Below are positions 4,951-14,241 of a DNA stretch of 49,120 bases, piece by piece. The notes beneath the pieces were generated by a model that did no database searches, was not told the origin of the DNA, and was given only the letters and a program-made list of their open reading frames with translations. The stretch's first letter is position 1, and every line of letters begins with the position of its first letter. The DNA comes from Luminiphilus sp. (GTDB lineage: Bacteria; Pseudomonadota; Gammaproteobacteria; Pseudomonadales; Halieaceae): NCBI GenBank assembly GCA_016778045.1, contig JADHQG010000007.1, positions 1 to 49,120 of the forward strand, given 5' to 3'. The translations under genes were made by a program, and so were the position numbers.

Positions 4951-6483
4951 TTAGTTGATCAGCAGGTTGCGCCCTGACATGGCGGCGGGGATATCCAGTC
5001 CCATCATCGTCAGGACAGTGGGGGCGATATCGGCGAGTATGCCGCCCGCAGGATCCAAGGCACGCGGGTTACCCCCAAAGTAAATCAAAGGGACATGCTC
5101 TGTGGTGTGCTGGGTATGGGGTTGATCGTTCTCGTAATCCCGCATTTGCTCACAATTGCCATGATCTGCGGTGATGAGGCCCTGGCCACCCTGTGCCAGT
5201 AATGCCGTCTCGAGTCGGCCAATGCACTGATCCAGCGTCTCGACAGCGGCGACAGCGGCAGCAAATTGACCGGTATGACCCACCATATCGCCGTTGGCAT
5301 AGTTCACGACAATAAAGTCAAAGTCTCTGGATTCGATGGCTTCGACCAAGGCGTCGGTGACCTCGTGTGCACTCATGGCCGGTTGCAAATCATAGGTCGG
5401 CACATCGGGAGAGGGGATCAGCGTACGGGCTTCACCTTCGAAAGGATCTTCGCGGCCGCCGCTGAAAAAAAACGTGACATGAGCGTACTTCTCGGTCTCC
5501 GCGATGCGCAGCTGTGTCATCCCCCGTGCGGCGAGGACCTCGCCCAAACTGTCCGTCAAGGTGTCCGGAGGGAAGGCCACGGGGCAAGCTAATGAGGACG
5601 CGTACTCTGTGGTGGTCACCAGTTGTAAAGCAGGTGGGTCACTTCGCGTAAAACTGTTGAATGCGGGATCGGTCAGTGCTTGGGCCAATTGCCGGGCACG
5701 ATCAGCTCGAAAATTCATGAACAATACCGCGTCGCCATTCTCAAAGGTGAGGGGGTCTCCGACAATAGTGGGCATGACAAATTCGTCATCTTCATCGCGC
5801 GCATAAGCCGCCTCAAGGGCCGCTTGCGCCGACACAGCGGTAAATGAGGCCCTGCCTTCCGCAAGTAGCGCATAGCTTTTTTCAACGCGATCCCAGCGAT
5901 TGTCTCGGTCCATTGCCCAGTAGCGCCCATGCACCGAGGCGATGCGCCCGACGCCAAGCGTTTGCAACACCTGCTCTGCCCGCTGCAGTGAGGGGCCGGC
6001 ACTGCGGGGTGGCGTGTCACGGCCATCGAGAAAAGCATGCAGGTAAAGCTTTTTCGCGCCGCGCTTTACGGCGAGTTGCAGCGCGGCAAACAGCTGGTCC
6101 TCATGACTATGAACGCCGCCGGGAGAGAGCAGGCCCATCACATGGACAGCATTGCCGCTTGCAACGGCGTCATCAATTGCCTGCAGATAGGCCGGATTCT
6201 CAAAAAATTCACCGGTCTCGATGGCGCGGTCAATTTTTGTGATCGACTGGTAAACAATGCGTCCGGCGCCAAGACTCATATGGCCTACCTCTGAGTTGCC
6301 CATCTGGCCCTCAGGTAGACCGACATCAAGACCTGAGCCGGACACCAGGGTGTGCGGCGCTTCCTGCCACAAGCGATCAAGATTGGGGGTGTGGGCAGCG
6401 TGCACGGCATTGTCTTCCGTGGCGGCCCGATGACCAAAGCCATCGAGGATGACCAGCAATGTTGTGCTTCGTGGCGTAGACAC
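4951..6483 (-). CDS. gpmI: Cofactor-independent phosphoglycerate mutase GpmI
   Basis: 510 aa, full length. It interconverts 3- and 2-phosphoglycerate in glycolysis and gluconeogenesis using two Mn ions and a phosphoserine intermediate. The alkaline-phosphatase-type fold shows LLVILDGFG with metal ligand Asp14, the phosphorylated Ser64 in [10 protein letters not shown], and the late metal-binding segments [14 protein letters not shown] and ITADHGNCE. The start is GTG at 6483 ([15 protein letters not shown]) with a poor ribosome site. It is the first gene of the operon with envC and ctpA. Confidence 0.97.
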
Positions 6484-6645
6484 GGCGTGCAGGGCTCAAA
6501 CGGTCGCAGTGGGCATTGTAACGCGGCGGACTGAGGAGGGCACGAGGTACGCAGGTCTGCCGTCGCACCAATGCTACCTGTTGGCGATTCTGTGCCGGTG
6601 TTAAGGTGCCAGCACGGAGGCACAGCCTCGATCGGCCTTGTGAGA

Positions 6646-6662
6646 GGGGCGTTGAACGCCCC
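6646..6662 (+). promoter_or_regulatory. Stable hairpin just upstream of the fieF start
   Basis: GGGGCGT (6646-6652) and ACGCCCC (6656-6662) form a perfect 7-bp GC-rich stem with a TGA loop, ending 8 bases before the fieF ATG. No T-run follows, so it is not a normal terminator. No purine-rich Shine-Dalgarno lies between it and the ATG. It may affect translation or be a protein-binding site; the function is unknown. Confidence 0.4.
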
Positions 6663-6670
6663 AATTGATT

Positions 6671-7642
6671 ATGACTGCATCGGATCCGGCACCGTCCGGT
6701 ACACCTGACCTTTCCGGTGACGCTGATGAGGCGGCCAAGTTACTCCGCTTGGCCACCAACCTCTCTGTCAGCGTTGCGGTAATGCTGATTTTGGCCAAGG
6801 GCTATGCGTGGTGGCAGACCGACTCGGTGGCCATTCTGGCATCTTTGGTCGACTCACTGATGGATGCGGGGGCATCGATACTCAACCTTTTTGCGGTGCG
6901 CTATGCGCTGGCGCCAGCTGACGCCAGTCATCGCTGGGGACATGGTAAAGCTGAAGCGATTGCGGGCCTGGGGCAAGGGGTATTCATTATCGCGTCGGGG
7001 CTTTTCCTGGTGAGCGAAGCGGTGCAGCGACTCTTGAGTCCCGCGCCACTCGCTGCTTTTCCGGTCGGGGTTGGAGTAATGGTGGTGACCATCGTTTTGA
7101 CAGCCGGCTTGGTGGCGGTGCAGAGCTATGTCATCCGCAGAACGCGCTCGCCCGCAATTCGGGCGGACTCACTCCATTACCGCACTGACCTGCTCACTAA
7201 CTCAGCAGTGTTGTTAGCGCTGGTGCTTGCACAGTTTGGTTGGTTGGGTATTGATCCGTTGTTCGCGCTGGCGGTAGCGGTCTACACGCTGAAAGCCGCG
7301 TGGGACATCATCCGTGACGCCACCAGTGAATTGCTGGACCAGGAACTTCCCCAACCCAAACGGGACCAGATTATCGATATTGCCAGCGCGCACCCTCGCG
7401 TTTTGGGGGTTCACGATCTGCGGACGCGTAGCGCTGGAAGAGTCGACTTTGTGGAGTTGCACCTTGAGCTCGATGACCACATGCCGCTTACGGTTGCCCA
7501 TGAAGTGAGTGATGATGTGGAAGCCGCCATCATGGCTGCGATACCTCAGGCAGACGTGATGATTCATCTCGACCCTGTGAGTTTGGCTGAGGAGCAACTG
7601 GATGACAGGATCGAAGCGGTGGAGCAGTCCGACGGATCTTAG
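6671..7642 (+). CDS. fieF: Cation diffusion facilitator, FieF type
   Basis: 323 aa. The CDF fold has about six membrane segments and a C-terminal cytoplasmic domain. Metal-site motifs match E. coli FieF: DSLMD in helix 2, the HRWGHGKAEA stretch after helix 2, and ADSLHYRTD in helix 5, including the Asp/His positions used for Zn/Fe transport. Proton-coupled efflux of Fe(II) or Zn(II) is the expected role. The ATG at 6671 is preferred over an in-frame TTG at 6665. The gene is divergent from gpmI. In the pseudomonad arrangement I recall, gpmI directly neighbours the rhodanese gene, so fieF looks like an insertion here. Confidence 0.9.
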   Translation: MTASDPAPSGTPDLSGDADEAAKLLRLATNLSVSVAVMLILAKGYAWWQTDSVAILASLVDSLMDAGASILNLFAVRYALAPADASHRWGHGKAEAIAGLGQGVFIIASGLFLVSEAVQRLLSPAPLAAFPVGVGVMVVTIVLTAGLVAVQSYVIRRTRSPAIRADSLHYRTDLLTNSAVLLALVLAQFGWLGIDPLFALAVAVYTLKAAWDIIRDATSELLDQELPQPKRDQIIDIASAHPRVLGVHDLRTRSAGRVDFVELHLELDDHMPLTVAHEVSDDVEAAIMAAIPQADVMIHLDPVSLAEEQLDDRIEAVEQSDGS

Positions 7643-7823
7643 CTCCAAACCGCTCTAGCCTACCTTGACTATCGACTCTCCCACTGGCGGACGCAGCCGA
7701 GCTGCTGGGAGGTGCCGCTGTTTTGGCGGGCGCGTCGATTCGGTGTCTGAGCGCGGGCCGCAGGAGCTCGAGCACAGTGGCCTGACTAGGGGACACTGAC
7801 TGGAGGGCGCGGAATTGAACCGA

Positions 7824-9213: not shown

Positions 9214-10626
9214 TCAGGCGGCCGGTAAGTCCAGATCTTTGAGTTTTCGGGTGAGGGTGTTTCGCCCCCATCCGAGTAACTCCGCGGCTTCGGCCTTCCG
9301 CCCGCCGGTATGACGCAGAGCGGCTTCGATCATGATCGATTCAAACAGTGGCAGTGCCTGGCGCAGGACGTTCGACTGACCCTCCGACAGCTGCTGATTT
9401 GCCCAGCCGGCAAGTTGCTCATGCCAGGTTTCTGCCGAAGAGACCGCGCTGCTGTCGTGGGCCTGAACCAACTCAGGTGGCAGATCCGATAGGAGCACCT
9501 CACGACCGGCCGCCATCACGGTTAACCATCGGCAGGTGTTCTCCAACTGTCTGACATTGCCTGGCCAAGACAGTTGCGTCAGCACCTCCAGAGCGTCATC
9601 CGAAATCGTTTTCGCTTCGACACCCAGTTCGTTACCTGCAGAGGTTAAAAAGTGCTTGAGTAGCTGAGGGATATCTTCCCGGCGCTCGGATAGTTTGGGG
9701 ACGTGAATACGAATCACGTTCAGTCGATGGAACAGATCCTCGCGGAACGCCCCCGATTCGACCAGTGATTCCAGTTTTTGATGGGTCGCCGCGATGATTC
9801 TGACGTCCGCCTTGATGGAGTCGACTCCGCCAACGCGGAAGAACTCCCCGTCCTGGAGCACTCTCAGTAAGCGCGTCTGGGTTGCCGCAGGCATATCGCC
9901 AATCTCATCTAGGAACAGAGTGCCCCCACGGGCCTGCTCAAAGCGACCTTCCCGGCGGCTATTGGCCCCGGTGAACGCCCCTTTCTCGTGGCCAAATAAC
10001 TCTGATTCCATCAGCTCCTGAGGAATGGCCGCCATATTCAGTGCAACAAATCCCTTATCCGCTCTCGGGCTGTGGCGGTGGAGCGCTCTGGCGACCAGTT
10101 CTTTACCTGTCCCCGACTCGCCGTTAATCAACACTGTGATGTGGCTTTGTGCCAGACGCCCAATGGCACGGAAGACTTCTTGCATCGCCGGTGCGTTACC
10201 GATGATCTCGGTCGAGCGGCGATCTCCTGCTTCAATGCCGGCGGGTTCCACTTGAGTACGTTGCGCCTGCGCCCGGGCGACAGTGGCCACCATTTCCTCG
10301 ATATCAAAAGGCTTTGGCAAATATTCGAAGGCACCCTCCTCATAGGAGCTCACAGCACTGTCGAGGTCTGAATGCGCCGTGGTAATGATGACGGGCAAGT
10401 CCGGTTGTTGAGACTTGAGTTTTGAGAGCAGCGTGATGCCGTCCATGCCGGGCATACGAATGTCGCTGACCACCACCATGGGTTGTTGCAAGGACAAAGC
10501 GTCGATTACGTCGTCACCGGACTCAAAAACCCGGCAGCTTAAACCAGCACGCGTCAGGGCTTTTTCCATGACCCAACGAATCGAACTGTCGTCGTCGACG
10601 ATCCATACCTGGTCGGTGGTAGCCAT
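9214..10626 (-). CDS. ntrC: Nitrogen regulation response regulator NtrC (NR-I)
   Basis: 470 aa from the ATG at 10626 (MATTDQVWIVDDD). The receiver domain has acidic residues at 11-13 and phosphoacceptor Asp55 in VVSDIRMPG. The sigma-54 AAA+ domain has Walker A GESGTGKE (169-176), the sigma-54 contact loop GAFTGA (216-221) and Walker B LFLDEIGD. The C-terminal Fis-type helix-turn-helix is in AAELLGWGRNTLTRKL. When phosphorylated by NtrB it activates sigma-54 promoters under nitrogen limitation. Its ATG follows the ntrB TGA by one base. Candidate target sites lie upstream of glnA, glnII and its own operon in this window. Confidence 0.97.
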   Translation of the reverse strand: MATTDQVWIVDDDSSIRWVMEKALTRAGLSCRVFESGDDVIDALSLQQPMVVVSDIRMPGMDGITLLSKLKSQQPDLPVIITTAHSDLDSAVSSYEEGAFEYLPKPFDIEEMVATVARAQAQRTQVEPAGIEAGDRRSTEIIGNAPAMQEVFRAIGRLAQSHITVLINGESGTGKELVARALHRHSPRADKGFVALNMAAIPQELMESELFGHEKGAFTGANSRREGRFEQARGGTLFLDEIGDMPAATQTRLLRVLQDGEFFRVGGVDSIKADVRIIAATHQKLESLVESGAFREDLFHRLNVIRIHVPKLSERREDIPQLLKHFLTSAGNELGVEAKTISDDALEVLTQLSWPGNVRQLENTCRWLTVMAAGREVLLSDLPPELVQAHDSSAVSSAETWHEQLAGWANQQLSEGQSNVLRQALPLFESIMIEAALRHTGGRKAEAAELLGWGRNTLTRKLKDLDLPAA

Positions 10627-10627
10627 C

Positions 10628-11695
10628 TCAGGTCTCCATGGGTATGAGCATGGTGAAACAGGTATCACCAGGTGAGCTCCGTACTTGAATTAGTCCGCCA
10701 TGCTGATTGGCGATGCGTTGAGCGATAGACAGACCCAGCCCGGTCCCTTTGGCATTGCCGGTGACCATCGGTAGAAAAAGCCTTGGCAGGAGATCCTCTG
10801 GTACACCGGGGCCGTCGTCGTTCACCTGAAGCGCGCAAACCAGCTTGTGGCGACTGCCACCTAACGTGAACTGTCTGAGCACACGGGTTCGAAGCGTGAT
10901 CAAACCAGCATCACCACAGGCTTGCCGTGCGTTGCGTACTAAATTGAGTACGGCTTGAGTCAACTGACCCGCGTCGGCGAGAAAATCGGGCAAGCTCGGA
11001 TCGTAATCGCGTTCGATAGCCAGTTCGCCCTTTGCCTCGGCCTCGATCAGTTGCCGGACATGCTCGGTAACTTCGTGAATATTGGTCGGTTCGGACTCAA
11101 GCCGTTCTCTGGGGCCCAGCATACGATCGACCAGCGTGTGAAGCCGGTCTACCTCGGAAATGATGATGTCGGTGTATTCCTGCAGGTTGGGGTTGGCCAG
11201 CTCCCCAGACAAAAGCTGTGCTGCCCCCCGTATACCGCCCAATGGGTTTTTCACTTCGTGCGCGACGCCTTTCATAATTTCTTTAAGCGTTGCCTGAGCT
11301 TGCCATTCGCTCTCATCGCGGCTGATAGCCTGCAACCGATCGACCATCGTCAATTCAACGAGCAGGCAGCGACTTTCGACCTTGCCGGCGATTGGGCTCA
11401 GCGTGACGTCAACGGTGCGCTCTTGGCCGGTGCGCGTGGTCAGCGGGATCGCGCGCCGGACCATAGAGTAATTTTCAGTGAGGGCCTGGTTGAGCAATGG
11501 GTACCACTCGTTTGATTCTTCAAGCAGCTCCTCCAGCGGACTTCCCAATGCCCGGCTGGCAGACACCTCCAGCAGATTCTCTGCCGATAGATTCAGCGCC
11601 CTGATGTGCAGATCGGCATCCAACAGCACCACCCCGGTGGCCAACAGGTCGAGGTGATAATCGATGGATAAATCGGGAGGTAATTCAGCGGTCAT
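10628..11695 (-). CDS. ntrB: Nitrogen regulation sensor kinase NtrB (NR-II)
   Basis: 355 aa from the ATG at 11695 (MTAELPPDLSIDYHLDLL). A PAS domain (about 12-120) is followed by the H-box with phosphorylated His146 in GVAHEVKNPLGG. The HATPase domain has the N-box LNLVRNARQA and glycine boxes DDGPGVP and GTGLGLSIAQ. There are no membrane segments, consistent with a cytosolic kinase controlled by PII. It begins 4 bases after the DUF4124 gene stop and is almost fused to ntrC, so the three form an operon. Confidence 0.97.
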   Translation of the reverse strand: MTAELPPDLSIDYHLDLLATGVVLLDADLHIRALNLSAENLLEVSASRALGSPLEELLEESNEWYPLLNQALTENYSMVRRAIPLTTRTGQERTVDVTLSPIAGKVESRCLLVELTMVDRLQAISRDESEWQAQATLKEIMKGVAHEVKNPLGGIRGAAQLLSGELANPNLQEYTDIIISEVDRLHTLVDRMLGPRERLESEPTNIHEVTEHVRQLIEAEAKGELAIERDYDPSLPDFLADAGQLTQAVLNLVRNARQACGDAGLITLRTRVLRQFTLGGSRHKLVCALQVNDDGPGVPEDLLPRLFLPMVTGNAKGTGLGLSIAQRIANQHGGLIQVRSSPGDTCFTMLIPMET

Positions 11696-11699
11696 ACTG

Positions 11700-12296
11700 T
11701 TATCGATTTGCACTGGGGCGCATGACATAGACGGTACGCTCGCTGGAAGCATTGACCCTGGCACCCTCGGCGTTAACGCGCACCACTTGTAGCCGGTGTT
11801 CGCCACGATAGACGTTGGTGAGCTGCCACGTAGTCATTCGTTGCGGCGTGCCCACCGGCTCACCGTCCAGCGTCAAGACAACGCGCTCACCCTGAGATAG
11901 AGCTGGGCGCACCATTGCATCGACTGAAAAATTGCCTGGGCCCATCGGAATCGTCGCGGCTTCGGCCGGACTCATGATCAGCGTTTCGTAGCTGATCGGC
12001 TCGGTCGCCACGGCGTCGGGTTCGGATTTGGGTGCGGGTGTCACCGCGGCCGAAGTATTGAGGCTGTGAACGGTTTGTGCCTCTACCACGGCTTCTTTGT
12101 CCGAGGGCGGCGTGTCGGTGAACGTGACGTTGCCATCCTTATCCGTGACCTTGTACACCGTTTGCGCAAAGCCTTTTGACATCGCGCCGGCGAATACCGC
12201 GATAGCGAGCAGCACGGCGCCGCCACTGAGGCAGGCCCGCCACGCTGGGTTCTGGCGATTGGCTGATCCTGGGTTGTGATGAGAACGTTGGGTCAT
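11700..12296 (-). CDS. DUF4124-domain exported protein
   Basis: 198 aa. A basic N-terminus and hydrophobic segment (about 26-43, ending near SKGFA-Q) form a signal peptide or anchor. The DUF4124 motif follows at once: TVYKVTDKDGNVTFTDTPP. The C-terminal half (about 115-195) looks like a small beta-rich domain (ERVVLTLDGEPVG, LTNVYRGEHRLQV). The protein is predicted periplasmic and the function is unknown. It is first in the operon with ntrB-ntrC, and DUF4124 genes neighbour ntrB in pseudomonads as well (from memory). A candidate NtrC box lies 24-40 bases upstream of its start. Confidence 0.88.
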   Translation of the reverse strand: MTQRSHHNPGSANRQNPAWRACLSGGAVLLAIAVFAGAMSKGFAQTVYKVTDKDGNVTFTDTPPSDKEAVVEAQTVHSLNTSAAVTPAPKSEPDAVATEPISYETLIMSPAEAATIPMGPGNFSVDAMVRPALSQGERVVLTLDGEPVGTPQRMTTWQLTNVYRGEHRLQVVRVNAEGARVNASSERTVYVMRPSANR

Positions 12297-12319: not shown

Positions 12320-12336
12320 TGCACCAATGTGGTGCG
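12320..12336. promoter_or_regulatory. NtrC-type box upstream of the DUF4124-ntrB-ntrC operon
   Basis: TGCACC-aatgt-GGTGCG matches the enteric NtrC consensus (TGCACC-N5-GGTGCA) in 11 of 12 half-site positions. It sits between the glnA terminator and the start codon at 12296, close enough to overlap a promoter. In E. coli NtrC represses the glnL (ntrB) promoter from a site placed in the same way, so autorepression or feedback is the likeliest role. Binding is inferred. Confidence 0.7.
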
Positions 12337-12419: not shown

Positions 12420-13826
12420 TTAGACCGAGTAGTACATGTCGAATTCAACCGGGTGCGTGGTCATGTTCAGTCGTTCCACGTCTTCTCGCTTGAGCTCGAT
12501 ATAGGCGTCGATCATGTCGTCGGTGAAGACCCCGCCAGCAGTCAGAAAGTCGCGATCTGCCTCGAGGGCGTCCAAAGCCATCTCCAGGCTGGAGGCGACG
12601 GTAGGAATATCTGCAGCTTCCTCTGCCGGCAGGTCATAGAGATCTTTGTCCGCAGCATCACCGGGGTGAATTTTGTTCTGGATGCCATCAATACCCGCCA
12701 TCAGCATTGCAGCAAAAGCGAGGTAGGGGTTGGCCGTTGGGTCCGGGAACCGCACCTCGACCCGCTTACCTTTTGGGGAGGGTTCGTAGGGGATGCGGAT
12801 CGAAGCAGATCGATTACGGGCTGAGTAAGCCAACATGACCGGTGCTTCAAAACCGGGCACTAGGCGCTTGTAGCTGTTGGTGGAGGCATTAGTGAAGGCG
12901 TTTAATGCCCGTGCGTGTTTGATAATGCCGCCAATGTAGTAGAGCGCAGTATCAGACAAGCCAGCGTAACCATCGCCTGCGAAGGTGTTGTCACCCCCTT
13001 TGGCGATGGATTGGTGAACGTGCATGCCAGAGCCGTTATCACCCACCAGCGGCTTGGGCATAAAGGTGGCCGTTTTGCCATAGGCGTGCGCGACGTTCAG
13101 GACACAGTACTTCAGAATCTGTACTTCATCTGCTTTGGACACCAGCGTGTTGAACTTGACGCCAATCTCACACTGACCCGCCGTGCCGACTTCGTGGTGG
13201 TGCACCTCCACCTCCAAACCCATTTGCTCCATGGCAGAGCACATGGCGGCGCGAATATCGTGCAGCGAATCGACTGGCGGCACAGGGAAGTAGCCACCTT
13301 TAACGCCGGGGCGATGCCCGATGTTGCCGTCCTCGAAGTCCATGCTCGAGGACCATGCTGCTTCCTCAGCGTTAATGGCATAGCTTGCGCCGCTCATGTC
13401 AGCGTGCCACTTAACATCGTCAAAAACGAAAAACTCCGGCTCGGGACCGAAGAACGCAGTGTCACCCAGGCCCGTAGACGCCAGATAAGCCTCGGCTTTC
13501 TTGGCAATGCTACGCGGGTCTCTGTCGTAGCCCTGCATGGTGGTGGGTTCGACAATATCGCAACGCAAAATGAGCGTGGGGTCGTCAGTGAAAGGATCCA
13601 GCAGAGGAGTGCTGTCATCGGGCATCAGAATCATGTCGGACTCGTTGATGCCTTTCCAACCGGAAATGGACGAACCGTCGAACATTTTGCCGCCCTCGAA
13701 GAAATCTTCATCCACCGCGCTAGCGGGGATCGAGACGTGTTGCTCCTTGCCCTTGGTATCGGTGAATCGTAGGTCCACCCAGCGAATATCGTTTTTACTG
13801 ATCAGATCGAGCGTGCGCTCCGACAT
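12420..13826 (-). CDS. glnA: Glutamine synthetase type I (GSI), adenylylatable
   Basis: 468 aa. It makes glutamine from glutamate, ammonia and ATP as a dodecamer. Signatures include [18 protein letters not shown] (metal ligands), [10 protein letters not shown], the substrate-loop segment around NRSASIRIP, and the NLYDLP-like KDLYDLP with Tyr397 as the adenylylation site. It is therefore the GlnE-regulated GSI-beta class. The ATG at 13826 is chosen because AAGGAG stands 7 bases upstream. An in-frame ATG five codons earlier would place that ribosome site inside the gene. A sigma-54 promoter at 13892-13907 precedes it and a terminator follows. Confidence 0.98.
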
Positions 13827-13891
13827 GTGTTGCTCCTTCATAAATCGCTCCGCAACCAGGCAGAGCCAAAGCGTTAAGGTGATGGATAGCT

Positions 13892-13907
13892 TGCAAAGGG
13901 TGTGCCA
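13892..13907 (-). promoter_or_regulatory. Sigma-54 promoter of glnA
   Basis: On the minus strand the sequence is TGGCACACCCTTTGCA. It has the -24 element TGGCAC and the -12 element TTGCA with exact GG/GC spacing. Transcription should begin near 13881, about 55 bases before the glnA ATG. The paired NtrC boxes lie about 130 and 161 bp upstream of that start. Confidence 0.85.
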
Positions 13908-14002
13908 ACCCGGAGGGCACCAGCAACTGTGCGCGGAGTCAACTCAATGCTGAGGAATCCACCGTTGCGGGTGGTGATGGGGACCCACCTCGCTGCGCAA
14001 AT

Positions 14003-14019
14003 TGCCACTTTTTGGTGCA
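14003..14019. promoter_or_regulatory. NtrC box 1 (shared enhancer)
   Basis: TGCCAC-ttttt-GGTGCA. The right half is a perfect NtrC half-site and the left half has two mismatches to TGCACC. The N5 spacer matches the consensus. Its centre (14011) is 31 bp from that of box 2, about three helical turns, close to the pair spacing I recall at E. coli glnA. Confidence 0.7.
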
Positions 14020-14033
14020 ATAAGCAACCGACA

Positions 14034-14050
14034 TGCACTTATTTAGTGCA
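14034..14050. promoter_or_regulatory. NtrC box 2 (shared enhancer)
   Basis: TGCACT-tattt-AGTGCA is a perfect palindrome of 6-bp arms with the N5 spacer of NtrC sites. The centre (14042) lies about 96 bp upstream of the predicted glnII start and about 161 bp upstream of the predicted glnA start, so it can serve either promoter. Confidence 0.78.
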
Positions 14051-14111
14051 TTATCCTGCCAGCAAGAACTGGAACCTATTATTAATCAATGGCTTAGGCG
14101 TCTGCTATGGG

Positions 14112-14126
14112 TGGCACGGATTTTGC
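14112..14126 (+). promoter_or_regulatory. Sigma-54 promoter of glnII
   Basis: TGGCACGGATTTTGC matches the consensus TGGCACG-N4-TTGC exactly. The predicted start is near 14138, leaving a leader of about 104 bases before the glnII ATG. NtrC boxes are centred about 96 and 127 bp upstream of that start, the usual enhancer distance. Confidence 0.88.
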
Positions 14127-14241
14127 GAGTGGATGGGTCAGGTGTTTTAGTCATCGCCACGTGAAGCGACTGACACATCGATGTGTGAACTAACTTGAGC
14201 AAACTGTGTGCCTTATCGCACTGTGCGGAGACGTAGTTAAA

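Follow-up and report, generated by a model that had tools for sequence, protein, structure and literature searches.

A predicted two-way NtrC/sigma-54 control region between divergent GSI and GSII genes of Luminiphilus sp. and its setting among relatives

Introduction

When a GSI gene (glnA) and a GSII-type gene (glnII) lie back to back, can one NtrC enhancer serve both, and what becomes of the two glutamine synthetases in the lineages around such a locus? The question was raised by a 49,120-nucleotide stretch of DNA from the marine bacterium Luminiphilus sp. (hereafter the window). It corresponds to contig C66 of a draft assembly of 1.87 Mb, which consists of 110 contigs and has a completeness of 67.8%. 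GSI can be switched off by GlnE in addition to being controlled at its promoter, and GSII probably cannot. A preliminary description of the window had placed a single pair of NtrC-type boxes between two opposed sigma-54 promoters. The present analysis favours a two-way NtrC/sigma-54 control region in which this one pair would serve both the glnA and the glnII promoters, a reading to which we assign a probability of about 0.7.

Gene organization and regulatory machinery

The glnA gene (minus strand) and the glnII gene (plus strand) are divergent neighbours in the window (Table 1). Behind glnA, on the same minus strand, come an open reading frame without an NCBIfam match, ntrB and ntrC, in this order, and typA comes 3' of glnII. 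The same locus was present in two relatives labelled Halieaceae (L004 and L005). The GlnII product covered 332 of the 333 positions of the NF041605 model with a score below the curated cut-off of 500 bits, and it is therefore named GSII-type here. An additional glutamine-synthetase-like gene was observed beyond the window (G000:C29:8271-9260, 321.6 bits to PF00120).

Table 1. Coordinates of the genes and predicted regulatory sites in the window
Feature	Position	Strand	Evidence
ntrC (NR-I), enhancer-binding response regulator	9214..10668	-	TIGR01818 737.4 bits, cut-off 558.6
ntrB (NR-II), sensor kinase	10628..11806	-	NF008293 322.8 bits, cut-off 240
NtrC-type box TGCACCAATGTGGTGCG, 3' of glnA, towards ntrBC	12320..12336	.	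1 mismatch
glnA, GSI glutamine synthetase, 468 aa, adenylylation-loop motif	12420..13826	-	NF007006 884.6 bits (cut-off 845); TIGR00653 670.1 bits
Sigma-54 promoter of glnA, TGGCACACCCTTTGCA, predicted start 13881	13892..13907	-	1 mismatch
NtrC-type box 1 (glnA side), TGCCACTTTTTGGTGCA, centre 14011	14003..14019	.	2 mismatches of 12
NtrC-type box 2 (glnII side), TGCACTTATTTAGTGCA, centre 14042, perfect palindrome	14034..14050	.	0 mismatches
IHF-like site AATCAATGGCTTA, between enhancer and glnII promoter	14084..14096	+	exact WATCARN4TTR
Sigma-54 promoter of glnII, TGGCACGGATTTTGCG, predicted start 14138	14112..14127	+	1 mismatch
glnII, GSII-type glutamine synthetase, 336 aa	14242..15252	+	NCBIfam NF041605 GlnII 376.2 bits

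Besides NtrB and NtrC, both encoded in the window, the assembly encodes RpoN. A search with IHF-alpha alone gave matches above the family cut-off in this assembly (G000) and in four others of nine genomes. GlnE was found on another contig of the assembly (G000:C71), with 919 of 960 residues aligned and the match running to the contig end. Since the DKDLYDL tyrosine loop is present in the GSI of the window, as it is in that of the five other divergent genomes described below, and GlnE is encoded in the same assembly, the description of this GSI as adenylylatable was borne out.

Sigma-54 promoters and NtrC-type boxes

The sigma-54 sites were scored against TGGCACGNNNNTTGCW, and sites of the form TGGCAC-N5-TTGC were found in both directions, each retaining the GG and GC elements 10 bp apart. 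Between the two promoters lie two palindromic boxes about three helical turns (31 bp) apart and within 80-200 bp upstream of the starts, which is the layout of an NtrC enhancer. From the start of glnA the box centres are 130 and 161 bp away, and from that of glnII 127 and 96 bp. One half-site of box 1 is degenerate (TGCCAC), and in the whole 1.87 Mb assembly box 2 alone fits TGCACYN5RGTGCA exactly. When a second pair was sought (boxes with at most three mismatches, 28-34 bp apart), none was found, so that a single pair of activator sites stands between both promoters. The two near-consensus divergent promoters, the spacing and centres of the boxes, their distances to both starts and the singleness of the pair were thus all recovered from the coordinates as the preliminary description had given them.

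To estimate how often such an arrangement arises by chance, 4000 sequences of 416 bp were simulated from a first-order Markov model of the intergenic region. A divergent sigma-54 pair was seen in none of the 4000, and neither was a box pair at 30-32 bp with at most two mismatches in all. On both strands of the whole window there were four sigma-54 sites at one mismatch, two of which are the glnA and glnII promoters, and one box pair (at most two mismatches each) at a spacing of 29-33 bp. A chance origin of the promoter pair and the box pair is unlikely.

On these sites the following model can be built. Under nitrogen limitation NtrB would phosphorylate NtrC, and NtrC-P would occupy the boxes centred at 14011 and 14042, so that one activator is assembled on the pair. 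DNA looping would let this assembly open either of the two opposite sigma-54 polymerases, of which the leftward one would serve glnA and then ntrB-ntrC, and the rightward one glnII. On the return of ammonium both promoters would fall silent.

IHF-like site and the unequal arms of the enhancer

An IHF-like site, absent from the preliminary description, was found 54 bp upstream of the glnII start. In five of the six divergent loci of the genus (see below) an exact match lies 53-54 bp from the glnII start, the exception being G079, and in G094, in which glnA is broken, the site is 55 bp from that start. In none of the six did the 20-200 bp before the glnA start contain an exact match. The two arms are therefore unequal. 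The boxes are closer to glnII (96/127 bp) than to glnA (130/161 bp), and an exact IHF-like match is present only on the shorter, glnII arm. Because the shorter arm would also be pre-bent at the IHF-like site, glnII is expected to hold the stronger claim on the enhancer, and the sharing would be biased towards it.

Competition need not follow from sharing. NtrC-P may be abundant enough for each promoter to behave as if it had its own enhancer, the locus then being a compact form of co-regulation; this falls only a little short of an even chance. Passages of PMC3897727 describe the divergent sigma-54 operons orp1 and orp2 as synchronised by a common activator, in keeping with such co-regulation. 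Judged from sequence, however, plain co-regulation would need neither arms of different length nor a difference in their IHF-like content.

Conservation among divergent loci of the genus

The glnII gene was found at 91% identity or more in 9 of the 57 genomes of the genus, and it was adjacent and divergent to glnA in six of them: G000 (the window), G076, G079, G090, G093 and G100. Given that the window comes from a draft assembly that is 68% complete, an artefact in which glnII was joined to glnA by misassembly was considered. It is hardly credible and was rejected, because the same glnA-glnII junction, with typA after glnII, recurs in the five further genomes.

In all six loci a sigma-54 site (at most two mismatches) faces each gene and the boxes are spaced by exactly 31 bp. 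A second box pair (at most three mismatches per box, 28-34 bp apart) was found in none of the six intergenic regions, which contain a few lone weak boxes elsewhere. From the start of glnII the near box is 94-96 bp away throughout. Measured from the glnA start, it is 151-152 bp away in all of these loci except the window, where the distance is 130 bp. Across the seven loci formed by these six and G094, 44 of the 79 motif columns were invariant, compared with 35 of the 336 other columns (Fisher p 5e-17, indicative only, since the sequences are related). The best-conserved element of the region was the glnA sigma-54 site (13 of 16 columns), and the counts for the others were 10 of 16 for the glnII sigma-54 site, 7 of 17 for each of the two boxes and 7 of 13 for the IHF-like site.

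The boxes themselves supply a point against sharing. Box 1 is a weak match. Out of 24 positions the pair mismatches at 2 in the window and at 4-6 in the five other divergent loci, and in G093 (L140) box 1 alone has more than three mismatches.

Predicted enhancers of glnA and glnII in separate loci

The genus has 54 GSI places, in 53 of its 57 genomes, and six of these places are divergent. Of the remaining 48, 44 were scanned (G066:C41, G084, G089 and G109 being left out) and one of these was too short. A sigma-54 site (at most three mismatches) preceded glnA in all 43 scannable loci, and 32 of them had their own box pair at 117-120/148-151 bp; no pair of the wanted spacing was found in nine, and in two (L141 and L152) it was poor or shifted. 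Such a pair is therefore the usual glnA enhancer. Among 80 named glnII loci, two were too short and two had already been counted as divergent, leaving 76 with at least 150 bp of upstream sequence. Boxes with at most three mismatches each were found at 94-96/124-126 bp in 7 of the 76 and at 94-97/135-138 bp in 9, and the remaining loci, some of the 76 being closely related, showed other spacings or no match. Given these pairs (32 of 43 glnA-alone loci, 7 and 9 of 76 glnII loci), either gene, when apart, often appears to have its own NtrC enhancer, and the divergent locus has one pair where two might be expected.

The distances of the near box to the glnA start were 117-120 bp in the 32 glnA-alone loci and 121, 130 or 151-152 bp elsewhere. 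The steps from 119 to 130 and from 119 to 151-152 bp are close to whole helical turns, which is suggestive, although few lineages are involved. In G094 the pair lies 121/152 bp from glnA and 97/128 bp from glnII, which fits descent from the enhancer of either gene. An alignment of the window with the glnA-typA region of seven relatives that lack glnII rose above shuffles at two places only, the start of glnA and the promoter side of typA, and gave no insertion point for glnII.

These distances bear on whether the pair has one real client, serving mainly glnII while glnA is driven otherwise or weakly by NtrC. On the glnII side the distances hardly vary, at 94-97 bp for the near box and 53-55 bp for the IHF-like site, whereas on the glnA side the near box ranges from 121 to 152 bp. 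In a lineage of another family (L038, the same as L169, of genome G541) glnA and glnII are likewise adjacent and divergent with boxes near glnII, and no sigma-54 site towards glnA was found there (at most six mismatches, GG and GC fixed); the gene order can therefore exist without the shared promoter design. Tandem glnII-glnA loci point the same way. For L098, L100, L010 (the same as L177), L181 and L192, with L102 outside the scan, no sigma-54 site (at most three mismatches) was found in the 330 bp before glnA in four of the five distinct loci, which suggests that glnA depends there on the glnII promoter. In the divergent loci of the genus, by contrast, no element is better conserved than the glnA sigma-54 site, and no other box pair (at most three mismatches per box) was found for glnA; a pair with glnII as its one real client is accordingly improbable.

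The leftward promoter and ntrBC

The glnA promoter also points at ntrBC, a feature that the preliminary description did not include. Enteric glnA promoters amplify ntrB-ntrC. The leftward promoter might likewise be kept chiefly for this purpose, in which case sharing would tie glnII to the dose of NtrC more than to GSI. This is possible but rather unlikely, and it can be true together with the shared enhancer. In G094 glnA is frameshifted and truncated, and yet the glnA-directed sigma-54 site and both boxes are intact and open ntrB-side sequence continues in the same direction; because of that direction, the leftward promoter may have been kept for ntrBC in this genome. Of 30 loci of the genus, 24 also have an NtrC-type box 91-98 bp beyond glnA. 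The one in the window is a possible operator en route to ntrBC, similar to the NtrC operator at the glnL promoter of enteric bacteria.

Against a promoter kept chiefly for ntrBC, GSI itself appears to be retained. The glnA gene is an open frame in all six divergent genomes. Comparisons with each of two relatives gave dN/dS values of about 0.005-0.03, with dS near saturation, so that GSI is still under purifying selection.

Loss of glnE and of GSI in GSII-bearing genomes

GSI and GlnE are missing from many GSII-bearing relatives, a setting that was not part of the preliminary description. In an order-wide draw of 390 genomes glnII was found in 39. Of the 38 besides the window's, 12 had a GSI above cut-off and one more (G389) had it in part; in 11 of these 12 the genes for the two enzymes share a contig and are separated by no more than about 7 kb, and in G269 they are on two contigs. 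When only the 33 of at least 90% completeness are counted, GSI was found in 11, and in the other 22 GSII may be the main glutamine synthetase.

A second set comprised the genomes of 50 of the 80 named loci (mostly gammaproteobacterial, completeness not given) and eight genomes of the genus; it overlaps with the order-wide set, since by contig positions G166 is, for example, G541 and G144 is G389. GSI exceeded the TIGR00653 cut-off in 13 of these 58 (7 of the 8 genus genomes and 6 of the 50 others), and in G144, besides these 13, it was split across two contigs. With nine genus genomes and the same 50 (59 in all; G144 taken as GSI-bearing, G070 matched by no more than a fragment), GlnE was found in 10 of 15 genomes with GSI and in 1 of 44 without it (G189). 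The five GSI-bearing genomes in which no GlnE was found were G090, G093, G100, G166 and G172. The match in G189 (G189:C64:59691-60299), a genome in which no GSI exceeded the cut-off, is a weak one (54 bits) inside a 1654-aa open frame.

Within the genus GlnE was found in 48 of 57 genomes; the nine others were G065, G068, G074, G083 and G087, which have no glnII, and G090, G093, G094 and G100, which carry it. The usual site of glnE is ilvE-glnE-argA-ilvD. No glnE match was found at this site in three of the six divergent genomes (G090, G093 and G100; L213, L215 and L214), where ilvE and argA are 394-395 bp apart inside contigs, or in G541 (99% complete; L217), where the ilvE-argA gap is about 200 bp. 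All four still carry GSI. Genome incompleteness as the cause of the missing glnE was ruled out for these four by the presence of the ilvE and argA neighbours within a contig. The three glnE-less divergent genomes form one group (100/98), and because of this grouping their loss of glnE was probably a single event; those in G094 and G541 would be further ones.

In G094 two short glnE-like pieces (43-44% identity) remain at the usual site, and glnA is broken (L094 579-1084): its match to GSI (51-52% identity) is limited to the first 179 residues and is spread over two frames. The glnII gene is open (95% identity), and no other GSI over cut-off was found in this genome, which is 88% complete.

A relaxation of GSI after the loss of GlnE was also considered. 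Against G081, dN was 0.017 for G079, which has glnE, and 0.033-0.044 for the three divergent genomes without that gene. This candidate was rejected, because several glnE-bearing genomes (G073, G061, G076 and G099; 0.034-0.045) match the glnE-less ones and dS is near saturation.

History of the divergent arrangement

In the glnA tree (52 rows) the divergent genomes fall within one 23-row clade, scattered among glnII-less ones. G079, G090, G093 and G100 group together (95/98), nested with glnII-less genomes (100/99), and G000 and G076 are placed elsewhere on a poorly resolved backbone. The divergent state would thus occur at two places at least, perhaps three, by repeated gain or by one gain with losses. 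The glnII genes of the genus form one clade (97/95, 27-row tree), and the nucleotide identity of G079 to G100, 94% for glnII and 85% for glnA, suggests exchange of glnII between genomes.

From such a state the work of GSI might be handed over. The glnII gene would come to share the glnA enhancer, glnE and glnA would decay, and the pair would end with glnII. That a shared NtrC enhancer is the device by which GSII displaces GSI, with glnII gaining from its shorter arm and the IHF bend, GSI turning dispensable, glnE lost first and glnA decaying afterwards, is put forward tentatively and, unlike the sharing itself, is less likely than not. It is just as tentative to read the living species as its stages, from glnA alone with glnE, through the divergent locus with glnE and then without it, to broken glnA beside glnII and finally GSII alone.

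Caution is needed because many GSII-only loci have glnII in another orientation and so need not derive from a divergent intermediate. The arrangement typA(-) glnII(+) ntrC(+) was found in 23 of the 80 named loci. It puts glnII in the usual seat and direction of glnA, opposite to the divergent loci, where glnII points towards typA. Among loci without intact glnA, L041 and G094 have the orientation glnII(+) typA(+). Since this matches the divergent loci, an origin from the divergent state comes naturally for L041 and G094, and for the rest it is at most a candidate. In another locus, L034, an ntrC-like match was observed in two overlapping pieces (6439-7814), perhaps through a frameshift or a sequencing error.

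If the shared enhancer is real, the locus would be a natural two-way NtrC enhancer with unequal arms, and it would offer a test bed for promoter choice by bacterial enhancers and for whether IHF tips that choice. If the handover is also real, a core enzyme as heavily controlled after translation as GSI is by GlnE could yield to a differently regulated GSII, and nitrogen control would never have been left on the way, because the enhancer passes on with the job.

Comparison with known systems

Enhancers shared by divergent sigma-54 promoters are already known, and the new part is the context, namely the losses of GSI and GlnE among GSII-bearing relatives. In the titles and abstract openings that made up the literature searched, with subscription papers mostly outside it, neither an NtrC enhancer common to GSI and GSII nor a replacement of GSI by GSII with loss of GlnE was found. 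GSIIB is known in some gamma-proteobacteria, and the GSIIB of green algae and early land plants has been proposed to derive from them, in passages of PMC2978018 that do not extend to the promoter of the bacterial gene or its linkage to glnA.

In enteric bacteria, passages of PMC3844500 and PMC8743547 describe hycA/hypA (activated by FhlA) and zraP/zraSR (ZraR) as divergent sigma-54 promoters with one spacer and one enhancer-binding protein. These differ from the present locus in their activators and genes, which are not two isoenzymes of one reaction. The orp1/orp2 operons of Desulfovibrio vulgaris are divergent, sigma-54-dependent and under one activator, with IHF sites between the promoter and activator sites; according to PMC3897727, the reporters were down 10-12 fold in an E. 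coli ihfA mutant, and deletion of one IHF-alpha gene in D. vulgaris had no significant effect. As far as the passages of that paper go, putative IHF sites lie in both orp promoters, whereas here the exact IHF-like match is on the glnII arm only.

In Bacillus subtilis one element serves both rocG and rocABC, with which the titles of cited papers fit. Both are SigL-dependent and activated by RocR, as stated in passages of PMC4348106. The rocG element lies downstream of rocG, to go by the title of a paper cited there, and not between divergent promoters.

A further close system is Escherichia coli glnA, where a tandem NtrC pair likewise lies upstream of a sigma-54 promoter. There glnA is divergent from typA, and the spacer is bound in vitro by RpoN holoenzyme and NtrC (passages of PMC8743547). 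Unlike in E. coli, glnII with a predicted sigma-54 promoter of its own sits here between glnA and typA, facing the same pair.
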